A stretch of DNA of 64,000 nt from Reichenbachiella sp. 5M10. GTDB taxonomy: Bacteria; Bacteroidota; Bacteroidia; Cytophagales; Cyclobacteriaceae. The position numbers and the translations under genes are program-made. The notes beneath the pieces are model-generated. The model searched no databases. It saw only the letters and a program-made list of their open reading frames with translations, and was not told the DNA's origin. The stretch lies in the NCBI RefSeq assembly GCF_002742335.1, contig NZ_MDGR01000007.1:2794501-2858500 (forward strand), read 5' to 3'. Within the stretch, counting starts at the first letter, position 1. Each line of letters begins with the position of its first letter. This document shows positions 28,731 through 36,366 of the stretch, piece by piece.

Positions 28731-28847
28731 ACGGCTGCAAATATGGATTTTATTGTTGAAAAGTATTGGCTTGAGAATGGAGATTTGAAGGCAAAATGGA
28801 TTTGACAAGGAGCGCAAATCAGTTAGCTTTGGATTGATGCAGTGCGA

Positions 28848-28879
28848 ATAAAGTGCACTGTGCACTTTACACAAATGTT
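28848..28879 (+). repeat. array border repeat S, copy 1 (possible attI-like site)
   Basis: 32 bp identical to 33297-33328. It contains the palindrome AAAGTGCAC-T-GTGCACTTT followed by ACACAAATGTT. The last GTT is the recombination-type junction that opens cassette 1. Both copies open a block of cassettes, as an attI site or a solo border would. Confidence 0.75.
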
Positions 28880-28898
28880 ACAGGCAATTAGTACTAGA

Positions 28899-29513
28899 AT
28901 GAACCAAAACCTTTTCTCAAAAACAATGTCAGGCAAAACCGAAGCTGAACTTAATGCAGTACTTGCCGAAAACTCCCCATATGTCGAAGAAGCCCGTCAA
29001 GCCGCTGTGTGGGAACTCGAAAAGCGTAACGCTGAATCCGAAGTAACCATGAAACTTGATTCGGAACCTTCGAAAGCAAAATCAGAGAGCCTCGAAGAAC
29101 AATATGAACCAGTATTTAATAAAAGTAAAAAATACATTACTGATGATCCTGATGCACCTGAACTCTACACCAAAACAGCTATAACTCTATTTTCAGCCCT
29201 TTTCTCAACTATTTTTGGAGCTGCCCTGCTTATGTCGAACATGAAGACAATGGGCAGAAGTTCAAGTAGATTTTTGGTTTTAGCATTTGGAGTGGTTTAC
29301 ACAGCCATTATAATTTTTACCAACGAAAAAATTGGAACTAATTCCAGTTTGGTGACCGTATTCAACCTAGTTGGCGCAGTAATTTTAACCGAGATTTTCT
29401 GGAATCATCAACTCGGCAAAGAATTGAAACACCGCAAGAAGAAGATTTGGAAGCCTCTTATCATTTCAATCATCATAACGATACCTTTTATTTTGGCTTT
29501 GATTTATGGCTAA
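28899..29513 (+). CDS. cassette 1: four-helix membrane protein
   Basis: I start at ATG 28899 (204 residues), 22 bp inside the cassette; an upstream GTG would read through the border repeat. An N-terminal soluble part has a TEAELNAVLAENSPYVEEARQAAVWELEKR-like pattern, a helix pair (written here as motif T-E-A-E-L...W-E-L-E-K-R) seen at the start of many Bacteroidota proteins of unknown function. Four hydrophobic segments follow (about residues 92-115, 124-142, 150-170, 183-203). No known function. Downstream is attC1 beginning 5 bp after the stop. Confidence 0.75.
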   Translation: MNQNLFSKTMSGKTEAELNAVLAENSPYVEEARQAAVWELEKRNAESEVTMKLDSEPSKAKSESLEEQYEPVFNKSKKYITDDPDAPELYTKTAITLFSALFSTIFGAALLMSNMKTMGRSSSRFLVLAFGVVYTAIIIFTNEKIGTNSSLVTVFNLVGAVILTEIFWNHQLGKELKHRKKKIWKPLIISIIITIPFILALIYG

Positions 29514-29518
29514 AAAAA

Positions 29519-29754
29519 GCCTGTAACATGGCGTCATAGTGCATGTGCGAACTGAGCATCTAGCCAGCCTCGGCGGAACGAACCCGTGCATCTGTCGCGG
29601 GAAAAACTTCTCTGCTTATAGCAAGATCAGTTCGCCGCAGCGGAAGATCGGCGGAACGCAGCTCTCACCGATTCGCTAGTAGGTTCGGCAGATTTTCACT
29701 ACTTTGGCTGTATTATCAAACGACACGCACACGCACCATACGCAGGCGTTGTAG
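29519..29754 (+). other. attC1 (cassette 1 recombination site)
   Basis: R'' is GCCTGTAAC (29519-29527), complementary to the TTACAGGC that opens cassette 1. The left arm GCGTCATAGTGCATGTGCG pairs with the right arm (about 29724-29743) with one bulged C and two mismatches; a bulged base is typical for attC strand choice. The site ends in GCAGGCGTTG with the G^TT point at 29748. About 235 bp long, nearly identical to attC5. Confidence 0.75.
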
Positions 29755-29759
29755 GTCAT

Positions 29760-30308
29760 ATGGACGAAAGAATTACAGTAATTAAATCAAACATTAGAGC
29801 TCTCGGGTTGCTAACAATTACAATTTTTAGCATCGGACTTACCATAACACTGGTGTCAGTTGCTGAAGGTGTTATGCTGCATTTTCTAAAACCATATACA
29901 AGCGCCTTGATCTCAAGCGACGATCCAATTGTCACGGAAATAAATTCAGCAATGAATATCGTATTTGCTTACAACATTTCAGGAGTTATCTTTTGCATTA
30001 CCGGAATTTTTGTAGCCACGAAAATGATAACTTATAAAAAATGGGCCATCTATGTTTTTCATGGTTTATGTGCAATTTGCATTGTTGGATTAGTAACCAC
30101 TGCCTTTCAGAACCTGAACCATTTCATCAGTTATGACCCTAACCATCCTAATAATACCTTTCAACTAGACCTAGATTTTGTCAAATACAGTATGATGAAA
30201 TTTAACGTCATTGTCAGACTTTTAATCCTTCTTGGTATCAGCTTGATAGTAACAAAGGTGAATCTGAAGTTGCGTAGGTCTGAATATCAGAATGTATTAG
30301 AAAGCTAA
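29760..30308 (+). CDS. cassette 2: four-helix membrane protein
   Basis: 182 residues, starting only 11 bp after the cassette border, so little room for a promoter inside the cassette. Hydrophobic segments near residues 15-38, 66-86, 95-115 and 152-172, with a longer external loop between the third and fourth helices (N-H-P-N-N-T-F). No family recognised. Ends 5 bp before attC2. Confidence 0.75.
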   Translation: MDERITVIKSNIRALGLLTITIFSIGLTITLVSVAEGVMLHFLKPYTSALISSDDPIVTEINSAMNIVFAYNISGVIFCITGIFVATKMITYKKWAIYVFHGLCAICIVGLVTTAFQNLNHFISYDPNHPNNTFQLDLDFVKYSMMKFNVIVRLLILLGISLIVTKVNLKLRRSEYQNVLES

Positions 30309-30313
30309 TCAAC

Positions 30314-30528
30314 GACCTACAACAAAGCGTATGAGCGAATGCCCATGCGATCTCACCGAAACTCTGCAAGTAACTTGACCGCCGCTTCGCTCAGGAATCT
30401 CTAGAAGTCTGGCGAAGAGGCATTCGGATCAGCAGTTATCCCTTGATCAATTGGAGGTATGGAGCGCATCGGCTACTTTAGTGCTTTTAGAAACTGTGTG
30501 GGCACATCGCCATACGCAGACGTTAGGG
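30314..30528 (+). other. attC2 (cassette 2 recombination site)
   Basis: R'' GACCTACAAC (30314-30323) is a perfect 10-bp complement of GTTGTAGGTC opening cassette 2. The left arm GCGTATGAGCGAATGCCCA pairs with the right arm near 30500-30517 (TGGGCACATCGCCATACGC) with a bulged A. The right end is CGCAGACGTTAGGG, G^TT at 30522. Sequence outside the arms differs from attC1 and attC5. Confidence 0.75.
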
Positions 30529-30586
30529 GTAATGTCTTAAACTCGTAAATTTCCTACCTTTATCTAATATATAACTGTCACCGCAG

Positions 30587-32020
30587 ATGGACCAACTTGA
30601 ATACCTAGAATCCGAACGTCAAAAAATCTGGAAAAAAATTATCGAACTGGACGAACTAATCCAGAAAAAGACTTCCGACTATGAAAAAGAGGCACAACAG
30701 GCTTCACGTAAAACTTCAGAGTTCAGAAATAAAACCGAAAAAGCGAAAGGGAATGCCGAACAATTTCTATCCGAATGCCAATCCATTCTTGAAGAACTAA
30801 GGACAGAAAAGGAGTCATTAAAGAAGCTCAACACCTCAATAAGCAGGTTTTATCATACCTCCAAAGGAAACTCAGAAGCTCTTCAAAAGGATCTTGACGA
30901 GCTAACCCGAAGGAAGTCCGAACTAGAGAATCAAATAAACGCTGTTGAAGAAATCTATGCAGGTCATGAGGAATTGGTCGCTCAAATAGGAAAACTTTCA
31001 TCCATATCAACTCAAGCCTCAGATTTATTCAATAAAATAAATACTCTACACAAACAGGCCATCTCCAGAAAAGAGGAAGTAGACTCATTATATTATGAAA
31101 TTCATGGATATGACGAAGAGGGGGCTGAGGGAGAAGAGGATACACACGTTGAGGGTATAAAAGATAAGCTTGATAGCACATTTGAGCAGTTGGAAAGTGA
31201 TTTTCAAGAACTCGGAAAGAAGGTTGAAAAGATAGAAAATGAATCAAAAACGAATTACGACAATTTTATTACCTCAAAGGATGATTCTTTTGAAAAGAAA
31301 ATCAAAACATGGAATAGCGAATACTCCAGAATAAAAGAACAAATTGAGTCCCTTCTACCGAATGCACTGACGGCAGGACTAAGTCATGCTTATTCCGAAA
31401 AAAAGGTAAAAGAGGAATCAGATAGTAAGAAGCTAAGAACTCAGTTTTATGTAGGTATCTTTTTTCTAGTTTTGGTTTCGCTAATACCTTTTTTGGTCAG
31501 TATCAACCTTTTGAAAGAAGGGAAGGAAATTTCAGAGGTATTATTAGATTTACCTAGACTGGTAATTTCAATTCTCCCCTTGTACGTACCTGTAATGTGG
31601 TTAGCTTATTCAGCGAACAAAAAATTGAATTTATCCAAAAGACTAATTGAGGAATATACGCACAAAGAGGTTTTGAGTAAAACTTTTGAAGGATTGTCTA
31701 GACAAATTGACGAACTGGAAGATCACGACTATGATGTGTCAAGCGAACTCAGAATAAAGTTGCTTTTCAATATTATGGAAGTAAGTTCTGAGAACCCGGG
31801 TAAATTAATTTCAGATTATAACAAATCTGACCATCCATTGATGGATGCATTGGATAAGAGTGCTAAACTATCAAAAGCTGTTGACAAACTTACTGGAATT
31901 CCAGGCATGAGTAAGCTAACCGAAATTCTCGAAAAACGGCAGAAACGCATCCTTAATAAGGAACTTGCTGGTATTGATGAGGCTTTAGAATCAACCGAAA
32001 ACGAAAGCGAAAACGCATAA
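30587..32020 (+). CDS. cassette 3: large coiled-coil membrane protein
   Basis: 477 residues. Residues 1-280 are almost wholly heptad-rich coiled coil with many E, K, Q and S (for example around 10-110 and 195-240). Two membrane helices follow, about 287-306 and 325-343, with a short loop, and then about 130 cytoplasmic residues including I-P-G-M-S-K-L-T-E-I-L. No nucleotide-binding motif is seen. Such long coiled-coil membrane proteins occur in some defence and envelope systems, but I cannot assign one. Unusually large for a cassette gene. A near-consensus -7 box (TACCTTTA) lies about 30 bp upstream. Confidence 0.8.
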   Translation: MDQLEYLESERQKIWKKIIELDELIQKKTSDYEKEAQQASRKTSEFRNKTEKAKGNAEQFLSECQSILEELRTEKESLKKLNTSISRFYHTSKGNSEALQKDLDELTRRKSELENQINAVEEIYAGHEELVAQIGKLSSISTQASDLFNKINTLHKQAISRKEEVDSLYYEIHGYDEEGAEGEEDTHVEGIKDKLDSTFEQLESDFQELGKKVEKIENESKTNYDNFITSKDDSFEKKIKTWNSEYSRIKEQIESLLPNALTAGLSHAYSEKKVKEESDSKKLRTQFYVGIFFLVLVSLIPFLVSINLLKEGKEISEVLLDLPRLVISILPLYVPVMWLAYSANKKLNLSKRLIEEYTHKEVLSKTFEGLSRQIDELEDHDYDVSSELRIKLLFNIMEVSSENPGKLISDYNKSDHPLMDALDKSAKLSKAVDKLTGIPGMSKLTEILEKRQKRILNKELAGIDEALESTENESENA

Positions 32021-32026
32021 AACACA

Positions 32027-32146
32027 TACCCCCAACAAACACTAAAATGAATATGCGAACTGAGCACTTTGATATGACATTGCGAACTGGAAACCTCCAT
32101 GTTTCTAGCCACTGGGGCGCATACTCATTTTAGTTGGTCGTTACCC
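32027..32146 (+). other. attC3 (cassette 3 recombination site)
   Basis: R'' TACCCCCAAC (32027-32036) complements GTTAGGGGTA of cassette 3 at 9 of 10 bases. The left arm ACTAAAATGAATATGCG pairs with CGCATACTCATTTTAGT at 16 of 17 bases. G^TT is at 32140 (GTTACCC). 120 bp long. Confidence 0.75.
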
Positions 32147-32165
32147 AGCATAGACTGCAACTCGC

Positions 32166-32546
32166 ATGAGACTCTACACGAACTGCATCAACTGTAAATC
32201 CGAAATTAACTTCCGAACAAGTGCATCAGATAGGTTTGTCCTGGCGAAGAGACAAGGCGAACGAATCAAATTGAATTGCGAATCTTGCGGATCAACCAAG
32301 AAATATCATGTGAACAACTTGAAAGCTGAGGAAAGCAGAATAGTTGGAATCATCTCAGTGCTCATTTTCCTCGGTGGAACAACTGCATTGTTAATTTACC
32401 TCTGGCCTTACATTTTTCAAATAGCTTCCGTTTATGCGATTTCTGGAGCAGTCGGAATCCTAACGGTTCCATTTTTGGTATATCAGGCGATCAACTCTGG
32501 ACAGGCGAACAAGGTGAAGTACTTTAACACCAAGAGGTACGGCTAA
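32166..32546 (+). CDS. cassette 4: zinc-ribbon-like membrane protein
   Basis: 126 residues. Two Cys pairs (C-I-N-C at 7-10 and C-E-S-C near 38-41) can form a zinc ribbon before two membrane helices (about 60-80 and 88-108). The end, F-N-T-K-R-Y-G, is polar. Zinc ribbon plus membrane helices is a common small-protein form in Bacteroidota; function unknown. Its attC is degenerate: ACTGGATAAC (32556-32565) matches the expected complement of GTTACCCAGC at 8 of 10 bases but no matching right arm is found. Confidence 0.7.
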   Translation: MRLYTNCINCKSEINFRTSASDRFVLAKRQGERIKLNCESCGSTKKYHVNNLKAEESRIVGIISVLIFLGGTTALLIYLWPYIFQIASVYAISGAVGILTVPFLVYQAINSGQANKVKYFNTKRYG

Positions 32547-32555
32547 CTCCAACGA

Positions 32556-32565
32556 ACTGGATAAC
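32556..32565 (+). other. start of a degenerate attC4
   Basis: ACTGGATAAC against the expected GCTGGGTAAC. The rest of the site seems replaced by repeat E1, so cassette 4 is probably immobile. Confidence 0.4.
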
Positions 32566-32573
32566 GGAAATGA

Positions 32574-32726
32574 ACCCCGCTCTTTTAAGCCTTAGCACAA
32601 AGCGAGACTTGAAAGCATCTATACAGGACAAGTCTTCAGACTTGCTTACTCCTAATTGGCGATCTTCATTGGCTCAATACCTAGCCATAACCATCAGGGC
32701 ATCAAATCAGAAATCAGCAGGGGATT
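32574..32726 (+). repeat. block-end repeat E, copy 1
   Basis: About 153 bp, roughly 85% identical by eye to 36200-36366. Contains an inverted repeat around A-C-A-A-A-G-C (arms TTAAGCCTT-like and GAGACTTGA), a second small palindrome AAGTCTTCAGACTT, then the run ATTGGCGATCTTCATTGGCT. It closes block 1 as its twin closes block 2. No gene seen. Confidence 0.7.
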
Positions 32727-32792
32727 TATTTCATCACTCAAAAACCTTCAAAACAAGCTTTTGAGCAGGCTTTATGCACTTTGAGCAAAAGC

Positions 32793-32924
32793 TAAGCTTA
32801 CCTGAGCCTGAAGGTAAGCTTACCAGAGCCCCAACCTAAGCTTACTGCAGGGTGAACCTAAGCTTACCTCGACCCTGAGGTAAGGCAACATGGGAGCCGA
32901 ACTAAGCTTAGTTTGGACAGGTCA
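32793..32924. repeat. six 22-bp phased palindromic boxes
   Basis: TAAGCTTA(C/G) starts at 32793, 32815, 32837, 32859 and 32903; the fifth slot (32881) holds a degenerate TAAGGCAAC. The period is exactly 22 bp, two helical turns, while the 13-bp spacers vary. Flanks extend the symmetry in some units: GGTAAGCTTACC at the second and AACTAAGCTTAGTT at the last are perfect palindromes. The layout resembles iterons or a cooperative protein-binding array. Confidence 0.8.
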
Positions 32925-33296
32925 GGTCTCATCGCGTTTTGTGATATACCAAGAGGTTTGCCTGTAGTCTTGGGGAATATCGACAGGAAATACTAGCTTG
33001 GCCTCACCAAGCCGATCAGCAGTCGGCTTCCTGTAGCATAAGTTCGAGAAATAAGTACACGATCAAGGGAAGCTTGCTATAAGCTTTGAACCCTTCGCCT
33101 GAGGCATTACTCGGAATTCGAATAGCCCCTCCGTCAGGTTTTGGAGCAAGTAGGTATCAACCTAGGATTGTTGTTTGGTCACTAGACTATCACTATCTTC
33201 GAAGTGTGCAGCCATCTCTATCCTGTGAGCTATTCACTCTATTGAGAGCTGTCACTACGTAGAAAAATAAAGAACAGTATAAAAGACATAGCAGAT
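32925..33296. other. gene-free spacer between the two cassette blocks
   Basis: No credible reading frame. It has two abutting hairpins, CTTGG/CCAAG (32997-33011) and AGCCGA/TCGGCT (33010-33028), and further AAGCTT words near 33070-33086. The remainder shows nothing recognisable. Confidence 0.5.
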
Positions 33297-33328
33297 ATAA
33301 AGTGCACTGTGCACTTTACACAAATGTT
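33297..33328 (+). repeat. array border repeat S, copy 2
   Basis: Identical over 32 bp to 28848-28879, including the AAAGTGCAC/GTGCACTTT palindrome and the closing GTT. Opens cassette 5. The sequence before it shows no similarity to that before copy 1. Confidence 0.75.
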
Positions 33329-33350
33329 GTGATCCATTTCGGAACGAATA

Positions 33351-33806
33351 ATGAAGAGTAAAAAATCATTCCTTGAACAACAGTGGGATTTCATGGGAAT
33401 TCTAATGATTTTAGGTGTTGCTGCTAGTCCTGTAATAATTGGAGGAATCTGGCTATATCAATCATATCTAGCTGAACATCTAGACAAGTACTTTGTTGAT
33501 GAACCAATTGCCGAAAAGTATTGCTATTGCGCAACTGAAAATAAGAAAATCCAGTTAGCAAAATTGCATTTTAGAGCAGAAGATGCACAAAAATCTGCTA
33601 TTCTTATTGAGAATGGAAATTATGACAATGTTGTCTCAAACAGAGTCAAGTTTGGTGATAAAGTCCTTATCTACAGATATTATGGAACACCAACAGTAGC
33701 TAAAGTTAAATGGGTTCATAACAATTTCAGAGGCGAGGAAATTTCAAACTCTGGTTGGGTTCCAGCCATCTGCCTGAACAATTCTCTACCCGATAGTTTC
33801 CAATAA
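33351..33806 (+). CDS. cassette 5: single-pass membrane protein
   Basis: 151 residues. A membrane helix at about 16-37 follows a short basic N-terminus, then about 110 residues with F-G-D-K-V-L-I-Y-R-Y-Y-G and V-A-K-V-K-W, a beta pattern like an SH3 or OB barrel. One C-Y-C motif at about 57-59. No family recognised. Starts 24 bp inside the cassette. Confidence 0.72.
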   Translation: MKSKKSFLEQQWDFMGILMILGVAASPVIIGGIWLYQSYLAEHLDKYFVDEPIAEKYCYCATENKKIQLAKLHFRAEDAQKSAILIENGNYDNVVSNRVKFGDKVLIYRYYGTPTVAKVKWVHNNFRGEEISNSGWVPAICLNNSLPDSFQ

Positions 33807-33812
33807 ATAACA

Positions 33813-34048
33813 GATCACAACATGGCGTATAGATGCATGTGCGAACTGAGCATATAGCCAACCTCGGCGGAACGTACCCGTGCATCTGCCGGCGGAAATT
33901 ACTTCTCTGCTTAAGTGAGATCAGTTCGCCGCATCGGAAGATCGGCGGAACGCAGCTCTGACCGATTCGCTAGTAGGTTCGGCAGATTTTCACTACTTTG
34001 GCTGTATTATCAAACGACACGCACACGCACCATACGCAGGCGTTAGGC
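33813..34048 (+). other. attC5 (cassette 5 recombination site)
   Basis: R'' GATCACAAC (33813-33821) is a perfect complement of GTTGTGATC opening cassette 5. The left arm GCGTATAGATGCATGTGCG pairs with the right arm near 34017-34037; the end is GCAGGCGTTAGGC, an exact GTTRRRY with G^TT at 34042. Over about 230 bp it is nearly identical to attC1. Confidence 0.8.
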
Positions 34049-34104
34049 TTCATTAAGAATCTTGCCTATTAAAATCTTAATTAACAATCCTACTAATTAA
34101 GATT

Positions 34105-34136
34105 TTTGTCATTTTATCATATAAGATTTACGTTTG
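34105..34136 (+). promoter_or_regulatory. full Bacteroidota promoter inside cassette 6
   Basis: TTTG (34105-34108), 20-nt spacer, TACGTTTG (34129-34136): both elements match consensus. It precedes the broken fic fragment and may still drive the lipoprotein gene of the same cassette. Confidence 0.65.
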
Positions 34137-34161
34137 TTTAAGTAACTCATGATAGACAAAA

Positions 34162-34416
34162 ATGAAAAACTACAACTCAGGGAAGTATATCAAACAAGGC
34201 TCCTATAAGAGTTTTCAACCAGACATCATATGTCGAGAATGACAAATTGAAAACATGGAATTACTAAATCCCCTCAGTCAAGCTGACAGACAATTGGGAA
34301 GATTAGATATGTATTCTGAGTATATACCGAATATTGATCCTTTCATCAGCATGCACGTGCTGAAAAAAGCAACTCAATCGAGTAAGATTGAAGAAACCAA
34401 AACAATATATGAATAA
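34162..34416 (+). pseudogene. fic N-terminal fragment, interrupted and truncated
   Basis: Conceptual reading gives a Fic-protein start (S-G-K-Y-I-K-Q-G-S-Y-K-S-F), an in-frame TGA at 34240-34242 where a Trp codon (TGG) would fit, then N-P-L-S-Q-A-D-R-Q-L-G-R-L-D-M-Y and ISMHVLKKATQSSKIEET, the region holding the inhibitory helix S-S-K-I-E of Fic AMPylating enzymes. The frame ends after 84 codons, so the Fic core with HPFxxGNGR is missing. A decayed stress or toxin-type gene captured in cassette 6. Confidence 0.75.
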
Positions 34417-34930
34417 AGCATTACTTATATTCTGTCTGGCTCTAGGACTTATGACTTCTTGTGGACCAAGAGCACACTTCAAAAGTAGCTCTTCTTACCA
34501 ACCAACTAACAATATTGAAGAACTCTATCTAATCGTTGTTGGTGATGAAAAGACCAAGGCGGCTTATGGCTATCTAACGGATAACTTAAAAGATTCTCTT
34601 TCGAGTTATGTATCGGTTGATTCGAAATATCACTGTTGCCGAGATGAGAACACTGATATGAATGTTCTGTTCTCATCATTGAGGCCATCATCACCAGAAA
34701 CTGATCACGTACTAACTGTGGTTACAACTAAAGTTATTGTTGGGTATGGCACAACAAGCTCAAGAGAACTTGGAGTTGCTTTATTTGACATAAGAAGTCA
34801 AAAAATGGTTTGGCAGGGTACTATTTCAGCAAGTTTTGAATGGTTTATTTCTGACGAAAACTATAGGGCAGTAGCTAAAACTTTAGCGAACAAGATAATG
34901 AAAGAACTGCATGAAAAGAACATAATATAA
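34409..34930 (+). CDS. cassette 6: lipoprotein of unknown function
   Basis: 173 residues from ATG 34409 (an upstream in-frame TTG would add 7). Signal peptide with lipobox M-T-S-C, lipidated Cys18. The mature part has VLTVVTTKVIVGYGTTSSRELGVALFDI and QKMVWQGTIS, a beta-rich pattern similar to small DUF4136-like lipoproteins that form one compact domain. The start codon overlaps the end of the fic fragment by 8 bp, so it may be translated by re-initiation. Confidence 0.72.
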   Translation: MNKALLIFCLALGLMTSCGPRAHFKSSSSYQPTNNIEELYLIVVGDEKTKAAYGYLTDNLKDSLSSYVSVDSKYHCCRDENTDMNVLFSSLRPSSPETDHVLTVVTTKVIVGYGTTSSRELGVALFDIRSQKMVWQGTISASFEWFISDENYRAVAKTLANKIMKELHEKNII

Positions 34931-34933
34931 GGC

Positions 34934-35045
34934 TGATAACAATCGCTATCACCCATAAGCTTACTTAGCTGTTTGCAAAGGCTGCTGTGGTCGTGTAGTT
35001 TTATTGAAATAAGCCCAGCATACGGATGATAGTTGGGCGTTATAT
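34934..35045 (+). other. attC6 (weaker match)
   Basis: Begins GCTGATAAC, sharing only TAAC directly with the expected complement of GTTAGGC. The arms CTATCACCCATAAGCT and AGCATACGGATGATAG pair at 13 of 16 bases. Ends GGGCGTTATAT with G^TT at 35039. 112 bp. Confidence 0.5.
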
Positions 35046-35073
35046 GCAATGTCTGTTAGCCAAATAAATCAAC

Positions 35074-35772
35074 ATGATGAAAAACTTAATCTTTGTATTG
35101 GTAATTTCTGTGTCTTTCAAAGCATTGTGCCAAAAAGAAGTCAACATTGTTTACGATACGAACATTGAGTATAAAAACTTCAACCCTGATTATTCGAAGC
35201 TTGATTTTAATAAAGGTGCACTTAAAGAATTAGTAACAATTATTGCTTCAAAGTCGATTTCTGATGATGAAATCGATTCTATTTCAACGCTGATCTGGCA
35301 AGCGGCTATTGACCCAATTCTATTCGACTCTAACTACAAGGAGTTTTCTGAGGGAAGCTTAGGTAGTGGCTATTCAGTTCGAAAAGATGGGGCTCATGTG
35401 AAGGAGCCAAAACCGTTTCTTGCTGAGTGGAGTGTTCAGAACTCAGAGATTACATACATTCGTTTCGTTATTGAATTTATTTTATCTCACTTTAACCTAA
35501 TATGCTACGGTGATAATTTTGAAGGTGTGCAAGCTGCATTCTATCAAATTATTCAGACTAGAGAACTCACAATTGAAAATTATTCAGGCAATAAATGGGT
35601 GTACGACTATTTAGATCAGATTAATCAAATCACTCTAAAAGAAATAAATAAGAGAGCTTTAGTTTCAAAGGGTTATTACACTATTTTCGTTAGTAACATT
35701 GAAGATTCCGAAAGATTAATCGAACTTCTTGCAAGGATTAAGTATGACTTGGTAATTCCAAAAGCTAGATAG
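35074..35772 (+). CDS. cassette 7, first gene: secreted protein
   Basis: 232 residues with a signal peptide ending K-A-L-C-Q (residues 1-20); not a clear lipobox. The body is soluble, mixed alpha/beta, with no motif I know. The C-terminus (F-V-S-N-I-E-D-S-E-R-L-I-E-L-L-A-R-I) looks helical. 12 bp separate it from the next gene, so the cassette carries two genes. Confidence 0.7.
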   Translation: MMKNLIFVLVISVSFKALCQKEVNIVYDTNIEYKNFNPDYSKLDFNKGALKELVTIIASKSISDDEIDSISTLIWQAAIDPILFDSNYKEFSEGSLGSGYSVRKDGAHVKEPKPFLAEWSVQNSEITYIRFVIEFILSHFNLICYGDNFEGVQAAFYQIIQTRELTIENYSGNKWVYDYLDQINQITLKEINKRALVSKGYYTIFVSNIEDSERLIELLARIKYDLVIPKAR

Positions 35773-35784
35773 ATAGCATCAAAT

Positions 35785-36192
35785 ATGAATAAGAAAGTAG
35801 CTTCAATTATCATGTTTTTCATACTTGGAATAGTTCTAATACTGCACGTTTTGATTTTGACAGGGCAAATTCCGTATGACAAAGTTTGGGCAGGAAAACT
35901 TCATTCAGTTGAGGAAATGAAATCTTTTGAAACATTCTCAATACTACTGAATGTCTTCATGCTATCTGTATTGTATATCAAATACAGACAACTAGCGAAA
36001 GGGGTGAAAAATAAGGTTATTGATATACTCATTTGGATTTTCTCCGCCTTTTTCGCATTGAATACTGTAGGCAATCTATTTTCAAAAAGCTTGATTGAAT
36101 TAATCCTAGGAACCTTCTTGACATTGACTTCCGCTATTTTATGCTTTGTTATCGTCAAAAGGGAAAAAACAAAAGCACTACAAGGTGCATAG
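35785..36192 (+). CDS. cassette 7, second gene: four-helix membrane protein
   Basis: 135 residues, hydrophobic segments at about 5-25, 50-68, 78-98 and 102-122. No family recognised. After the stop, TGCATAG overlaps the expected attC start (TGCATATAAC) for only six bases, and repeat E2 follows at once, so the attC of this cassette is lost or never present. Confidence 0.7.
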   Translation: MNKKVASIIMFFILGIVLILHVLILTGQIPYDKVWAGKLHSVEEMKSFETFSILLNVFMLSVLYIKYRQLAKGVKNKVIDILIWIFSAFFALNTVGNLFSKSLIELILGTFLTLTSAILCFVIVKREKTKALQGA

Positions 36193-36199
36193 TCAATAG

Positions 36200-36366
36200 A
36201 CCCGCTCTTTCAAGTCTTAGTACAAAGCAAGACTTGAAAGTATATAATATATACAGTGCAAGTCTTCAGACTTGTTTAGTCCCAATTGGCGATCTTCATT
36301 GGCTCAACACACAGCCATAACCATAGAATTCATCAGGGTATCAAATCAGAAATCAGCAGGGGATTT
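36200..36366 (+). repeat. block-end repeat E, copy 2
   Basis: Twin of 32574-32726. Contains the inverted repeat TCAAGTCTT / AAGACTTGA (9 bp, loop 10), AAGTCTTCAGACTT, and CAAATCAGAAATCAGCAGGG. Marks the right edge of the island, 27 bp before the symporter stop codon. Confidence 0.7.

Follow-up and report, generated by a model that had tools for sequence, protein, structure and literature searches.

Integron-like cassette arrays in Reichenbachiella sp. 5M10, probably served by a tyrosine recombinase without the I2 domain

Canonical (sedentary chromosomal) integrons hold cassettes of one open reading frame (ORF) each, all pointing in one direction and closed by attC hairpins with R and L stems and an asymmetric unpaired spacer; cassettes are exchanged by crossover in a GTT triplet, and the array opens at a start site beside the integrase gene. 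Passages of one survey make the additional domain, I2, a defining trait of integron integrases (PMC9668308), and passages of another describe retaining integrases only if that domain was present (PMC2426708). In canonical integrons I2 docks extrahelical bases, and its role has so far been approached, according to passages of the same source, by directed evolution of IntI1 (PMC7790495); which of I2 and attC was selected first has been put as a chicken-and-egg paradox (PMC4792948, in part). For an 'Integron-like' subgroup of tyrosine recombinases the insertion is termed essential for integron function, and the passages concerned do not tie insertion-less members to arrays (PMC8138268). Bacteroidota are counted among the phyla with integrons (PMC9668308 and PMC8618304, in part), and intI has been noted in the Bacteroidetes/Chlorobi group (PMC2426708, in part). 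Passages of PMC9024848 state that only In0 was earlier known from Bacteroidetes, and then one complete integron, in Salinibacter ruber M1, which is also termed Bacteroidetes there and, unlike the system described here, was found by an IntI-based method. The eleven attC models presented in passages of PMC8352920 include none for Bacteroidota. Here we describe cassette arrays at positions 28848-36366 of a 64,000-nucleotide (nt) stretch of the Reichenbachiella sp. 5M10 genome (the window; contig NZ_MDGR01000007.1, positions 2,794,501 to 2,858,500) and a 381-residue tyrosine recombinase that may serve them.

These arrays share with canonical integrons the cassette make-up, hairpins, spacer, GTT crossover, start site and exchange outlined above. 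They differ in that the recombinase lacks I2 and has an extra N-terminal domain, that the extrahelical bases of the sites are unconserved, and that the array lies behind the integrase gene and runs the same way; the canonical loci that could be oriented (4/20) comprised three divergent and one co-directional. The canonical IntI at locus L240 (genome G101) has two co-directional cassettes downstream. We consider it highly probable that the window belongs to an integron-like system with an I2-less integrase. Cassettes, mostly one ORF plus one attC-like hairpin, would be captured as circles at an attI-like start site and later exchanged or lost, with the crossover in the GTT triplet. The catalyst would most likely be the 381-residue recombinase, which is encoded upstream of the same start site and of the largest array seen and would act on the window arrays in trans.

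A preliminary description of the window had proposed a single array of seven cassettes, all in one direction, in which the bases opening each cassette are complementary to the 5' end of the palindrome closing it. All units do face the same way, but they form two tandem arrays, not one: each opens with an identical 32-nt start site (a 21-nt palindrome, then CACAAATGTT) at 28848-28879 and 33297-33328, and each closes with a similar end repeat of about 150-165 nt. For cassettes 1 to 5 the rule and the arm matches first quoted proved correct: their own opening and closing ten bases agree at 9/10 in cassette 1 (the first nine perfect), 10/10 in cassette 2, 9/10 in cassette 3, 8/10 in cassette 4 (by eye; the chaining script went elsewhere there) and 9/10 in cassette 5 (the first nine perfect). 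Both arrays appear to be decayed, and we hold them to be part of a chromosomal integron-like system with the same high confidence that we place in the explanation as a whole. Their features are as follows.

28823-28847, forward strand: stretch resembling the recombinase gene's 3' end and flank, just before start site 1; 23/25 bases equal those of L033:3184-3208, which spans the recombinase stop codon
28848-28879, forward strand: attI-like start site 1 (21-nt palindrome plus CACAAATGTT), with copies across the genome, one of them after the recombinase stop codon
28878-29748, forward strand: cassette 1 (ORF 28899-29513), by own-end complementarity; an identical 871-bp copy stands first at another start site (L036:5286)
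29518-29757, forward strand: attC-like site 1; nhmmer match at 29525-29750, expectation value (E) 4.5e-50; bottom-strand fold z -1.61
29749-30522, forward strand: cassette 2 (ORF 29760-30308), by its own ends
30314-30531, forward strand: attC-like site 2; nhmmer match at 30321-30524, E 2.3e-18
30523-32140, forward strand: cassette 3 (ORF 30587-32020), by its own ends
32027-32149, forward strand: attC-like site 3; fold with a 17-bp stem, z -1.97; no profile or covariance-model match
32141-32570 (end approximate), forward strand: cassette 4 (ORF 32166-32546), the final one of array 1, with a degenerate closing hairpin
32576-32727, forward strand: end repeat of array 1, from repeat comparison (D4, D6, D10)
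32729-33296, forward strand: leader of about 570 bp before start site 2, repeated before other arrays of the genome
33297-33328, forward strand: attI-like start site 2, identical to site 1, from repeat comparison and genome search
33327-34042, forward strand: cassette 5 (ORF 33351-33806), by its own ends
33812-34051, forward strand: attC-like site 5; nhmmer match at 33819-34044, E 5e-48
34043-35039, forward strand: unit 6 (ORF 34412-34930), opening and closing ends mismatched by eye; probably rearranged
34931-35048, forward strand: attC-like hairpin closing unit 6, by eye
35040-36200 (end approximate), forward strand: unit 7 (ORFs 35074-35772 and 35785-36192), no closing site seen
36201-36366, forward strand: end repeat of array 2, from repeat comparison

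Start site 2 and four other start sites are preceded by a leader, of up to about 600 bp, that is repeated in the genome; the window copy matches at 88-97%, up to the start site, in two places of locus L034, one of L035 and one of L036. Within it, an inner 22-bp unit containing AAGCTTACC occurs in four copies at 32789-32890. An Rfam scan of the window at gathering thresholds returned two tRNAs and nothing else, and none of eight window cassette proteins exceeded the cut-off in a Pfam search.

Chaining units by the cassette-end rule from GTT triplets outside the arrays never gave three or more: 456 of 461 triplets on the plus strand gave none, four gave one unit and one gave two, and for the 1,073 triplets on the minus strand the corresponding figures were 1,062, eight and three. 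Array 1 yields a chain of 3 and the related arrays of the same genome chains of 16 and 11; the chain of 1 in array 2 is, by length alone, not above chance. A profile hidden Markov model (HMM) of AAC-to-GTT stretches, built from 15 long sites of two congeneric genomes (G003 and G004) and so held out from the window, matched it at sites 1, 2 and 5 with ends falling exactly on AAC and GTT, and found no match in the reversed window. A wider held-out test used three profiles, from 23 sites of two other species, on eight stretches (seven of this genome and one of a sister genome). This search, which makes no use of the arms, returned 29 sites with complete ends, three of them in the window. Of these, 28 had a 9-10/10 partner within their own upstream 2.5 kb, against 5.0% for other upstreams, and none (0/29) had a partner at its own right end. 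This outcome is the integron cassette rule: the closing arm fits the opening of the same cassette. The own-end counts of our 160 chained cassettes were set aside as evidence, because those cassettes had been chosen by own-end complementarity; the 29-site test replaces them. Among the 134 of the 160 that come from loci with two or more cassettes, the longest ORF lies in sense in 128, and the median ORF start is 27 nt after the GTT.

An exchange of cassettes is seen in a sister genome, G007, whose MurI protein is 100% identical. As far as the GTT of start site 1 it is 98.7% identical to the window; it then carries two other cassettes (10/10 each), followed again by window cassette 4 and the end repeat, a region common to both genomes (96% over 32139-32737). 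Duplicates of near-full length also occur among the 160 chained cassettes, as 14 pairs (3 from this genome, 1 from G004 and 10 from G035): 11 pairs are identical, 2 differ by a single mismatch and 1 stands at about 91%. In some pairs the identity stops at GTT on both sides. Examples are a 1,031-bp cassette found both in tenth place in the recombinase array and in first place at a start site of L034, and one of 1,047 bp that occupies the first and fifteenth places in the array of G035. That the sister genome exchanged cassettes with GTT junctions and that identical cassettes stand in differing contexts indicates, from these sequence comparisons, that the cassettes move and that the crossover lies within the GTT triplet. 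The view of the units as integron-like cassettes thus stands, on the held-out profiles, the stem covariation in 41 related sites described below, the duplicates and the exchange. In a further genome (G001), the flanks that match the window (positions up to 28801 and from 37856; flank gene names assigned by eye) lie about 155 bp apart, and neither the start site nor the symporter was found in 15 kb of its sequence.

The absence of an integrase, as first reported, is correct for the 64 kb and not for the genome: the integron integrase model matches the genome seven times at E 0.001, never within the part of the contig that holds the window, but a recombinase gene adjoins the same start site 1.9 Mb away. 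Searching the genome for the start site with three mismatches allowed gave eight copies (six exact, one with one mismatch and one with two) against 0 in the control. The single-mismatch copy starts 10 nt past the stop codon of the gene for the 381-residue tyrosine recombinase, at about C7:882052-883194, and opens an array (L033) of at least 16 cassettes at 9-10/10 within 20 kb; at least 11 cassettes stand in another array, 250 kb away from the window. The position of the start site directly after the recombinase gene, together with the exchange of first cassettes at it, would fit a function as an attI. Array 1 itself looks like an integron without its former integrase, which it probably lost, because positions 28823-28847 match the 3' end and flank of the recombinase gene. 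The window arrays thus resemble CALIN (clusters of attC lacking an integrase) in having no integrase nearby, and differ from them in keeping their start sites and in having a matching recombinase elsewhere in the genome.

The recombinase is not a canonical integron integrase, as it is without the I2 insertion of about 42 residues, which is considered a requirement for the use of folded attC hairpins, and has an extra N-terminal domain. Its best family match is NF040815 (XerA_Arch), passed at 233.1 bits (cut-off 220), while it falls below the cut-offs of TIGR02249 (195.9 bits; cut-off 265) and NF011946 (127.9 bits; cut-off 435), and its alignment to the solved IntI4 breaks at the integron-specific region. 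At the eight named array loci KDR and HxLRH stand 58-59 residues apart (63 in one), against 100 in the 30 canonical IntI that could be measured (5/35 could not). An insertion at the I2 position is absent from all 16 array-linked recombinases that were aligned, and R239, K264, H328, R331, H354 and Y363, which we take to be the catalytic residues, are invariant among them. An AlphaFold 2 (AF2) model of a relative, L108 (predicted local distance difference test, pLDDT, 83.3; predicted template modelling score, pTM, 0.56), has no extra helix at the place of I2 and an additional N-terminal domain, and its best fold matches are XerA (5hxy) and IntI4. The likeness to XerA-type recombinases extends to family and to the modelled fold of this relative; what sets the present enzyme apart from them is its linkage to cassette arrays and the extra N-terminal domain.

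We are evenly divided over a further proposal, namely that these enzymes represent a separate or older Bacteroidota branch of integrons, in which the integrase can work on folded cassette sites with no I2. If that were so, cassette recombination would predate I2 or would have arisen twice from Xer-like recombinases, and the published chicken-and-egg problem would be resolved. The competing account, compatible with the explanation preferred here, is that the recombinases descend from a canonical IntI that lost I2, and are neither older nor separate. The identical cassette logic and GTT crossover speak for such a loss, as does the score that the integron integrase model TIGR02249 still gives. 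In the tree, 14 of 15 canonical IntI form one clade (Shimodaira-Hasegawa-like approximate likelihood ratio test, SH-aLRT, 100) that contains no array-linked Bacteroidota recombinase, the fifteenth being a long branch, and forcing IntI and array-linked recombinases into a single clade costs 17.8 log-likelihood units (approximately unbiased test, AU, p 0.021), in a comparison whose groups were chosen after the first tree had been seen. Both trees are quick and weakly forked (29 of 69 inner branches are open in the one that gave the IntI clade), which leaves room for secondary loss; on balance we hold it to be rather unlikely.

The sites form attC-like hairpins in which extrahelical bases are not conserved. 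An 11-bp stem, compared across 41 sites from other genomes, has 88.3% of its cells paired, all 11 pairs showing two-sided changes, and its covariation is 0.693, against 0.194 when shuffled (reached in 0 of 500) and 0.10-0.16 when slid; compensating changes, not sequence identity, maintain the stem. The unpaired spacer between stem and arms is mostly 3-4 nt after AAC and 4-5 nt before GTT. Extrahelical bases occupy no set places: in the first 22 stem columns 38 of 119 sites have none, among them 22 of the 39 sites in the 112-125-nt class, and 81 have some, 65 sites having one in the 5' arm and 45 having one in the 3' arm. Canonical sites of the same phylum have bulges in 19/19 cases, in the 5' arm in 18/19, these sites coming from 4 of 20 loci that were picked for real-looking chains and being mutually non-independent. 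A simple pairing of I2-less integrase with bulge-free sites is borne out only in part, given the 81 sites with some bulge. Long sites were sought by profile HMM. For the class of about 120 nt, the covariance model R1 matched 13 times at E values of up to 5, all in four stretches other than the window and 6 times below 0.01, and the bottom strand of one L033 site folds with z -3.34.

It is conceivable that the enzyme acts in the manner of Xer on duplex sites, the hairpin being merely two inverted binding sites. A recombinase without the domain that docks extrahelical bases, the bulge-free sites, which had no counterpart among the 19 canonical ones, and the palindromes in many start sites would all fit such double-strand recombination. 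Against it stand the maintenance of the stem through compensating changes, the kept asymmetry of the unpaired spacer, and the complementarity, over ten bases of which six are variable, between the opening and closing arms of the same cassette, which a hairpin in a circle would need. We judge recombination between duplex sites improbable, and a folded single strand would be the substrate in the I2-less integron-like system that we favour.

The preliminary description had said that cassette arrays are best known from Proteobacteria and that few are described for this phylum. Passages of the papers cited above do report few, yet the arrangement is common in the class. Profile A1 of the recombinase hits 163 of 296 class genomes at E 1e-60, the absence of the insertion among them having been measured in 40 loci hand-picked down the list, where the KDR-to-HxLRH distance is 58-59 residues in 38 and 63 and 65 in one each. 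Of these 40, the 31 with at least 1.5 kb downstream are testable, and in 15 of the 31 at least two cassettes follow, beginning no more than 450 nt past the recombinase stop, compared with 0/40 for reversed sequence. Canonical IntI over the cut-off occurs in 107 of 392 phylum genomes, a single one of the 107 being from the window's class, and in just one of the 296 of that class (G095), where the chains nearby are one-unit chains at chance level. Among relatives' recombinase loci, 9 of 35 carry chains of 2-20 units downstream under a strict rule (9/10, or 8/10 with a strong hairpin); plain 8/10 chains were rejected as arrays since they include chance chains (for example at L074, L075, L082 and L102). 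Eight of the 80 named loci have two or more cassettes, all eight in Bacteroidota, including Algoriphagus ornithinivorans, Flavobacterium aciduliphilum, Seonamhaeicola aphaedonensis, Rufibacter, Aquiflexum and Zunongwangia mangrovi. Many relatives' assemblies end shortly past the recombinase gene, as though assembly were halted by array repeats, and draft genomes may under-count arrays.

Integrase-less arrays can be served in trans, and a canonical IntI elsewhere in this genome might in principle maintain the arrays. No match in the genome exceeds the integron integrase cut-off, and with the class count just given we regard this as very improbable. That the palindromes are terminators or another repeat family in a fixed gene order, as hairpins between genes of the same direction might suggest and as the preliminary description had allowed for, is contradicted by the exchange with GTT junctions in the sister genome, by the duplicates in other contexts and by own-end complementarity, and is extremely improbable.

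Several findings weigh against an integron-like system served in trans by the 381-residue recombinase. The genome has at least three other tyrosine recombinase genes. The sister genome G007 shows no recombinase at E 1e-50, so that its exchange of cassettes would predate a loss or have relied on a different enzyme, unless the assembly is incomplete. The cassette-end rule, under which the preliminary description had included units 6 and 7, is broken by both: the closing arm of unit 6, an attC-like hairpin, is complementary to a different opening, and a search for the closing site of unit 7 found none. The bottom strands of the two window sites given z-scores above (-1.61 and -1.97) fold only moderately better than shuffles. 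R1 matches nothing in the window, where sites are mostly longer. The stem pairing is partly selected, because the 41 covariation sites had passed a hairpin filter. Finally, fewer than two cassettes were found at 16 of the 31 testable loci and at 26 of the 35 relatives' loci, many of the latter at contig ends.

We found no paper on cassette arrays with an I2-less integrase in the open-access literature searched, a weak sign of novelty because subscription papers and preprints lay mostly outside the search. The system may be common in the class yet overlooked, because its enzyme is without the part by which integron enzymes are normally recognised. If the reading is true, a cassette-capture system in perhaps at least a quarter of the class has largely been overlooked, along with a mobile gene pool that includes defence genes (restriction enzymes and a retron-type reverse transcriptase). 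Natural I2-less enzymes would also offer a means to test what I2 is for.

Some relatives of the recombinase lie in other settings. One is on the 395-kb Persicobacter plasmid CP012862.1 (L330; Bacteroidota), with no convincing array downstream. I2-less recombinases in Peregrinibacteria (L151) and Spirochaetota (L130) are each accompanied by one cassette-like unit (9/10 and divergent, and 10/10 and downstream, respectively); a single unit can be chance. On an Acinetobacter plasmid (L331:4046-6067), a shorter relative (51.5% identity over part) lies directly upstream of tet(X3), whose gene start is 18 nt after a GTT resembling a cassette opening; a closing arm fitting that opening at 8/10 was not found within 3.5 kb. 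Going by this short motif, tet(X3) may in the past have belonged, as a cassette, to a Bacteroidota array of this kind. As to cargo, the first 25 families matched at 1e-4 among 92 hand-picked cassette proteins include a HaeII-type restriction enzyme, a type IIG enzyme, a reverse transcriptase (retron-type), STAND NTPases, TPR proteins and an aldo-keto reductase.

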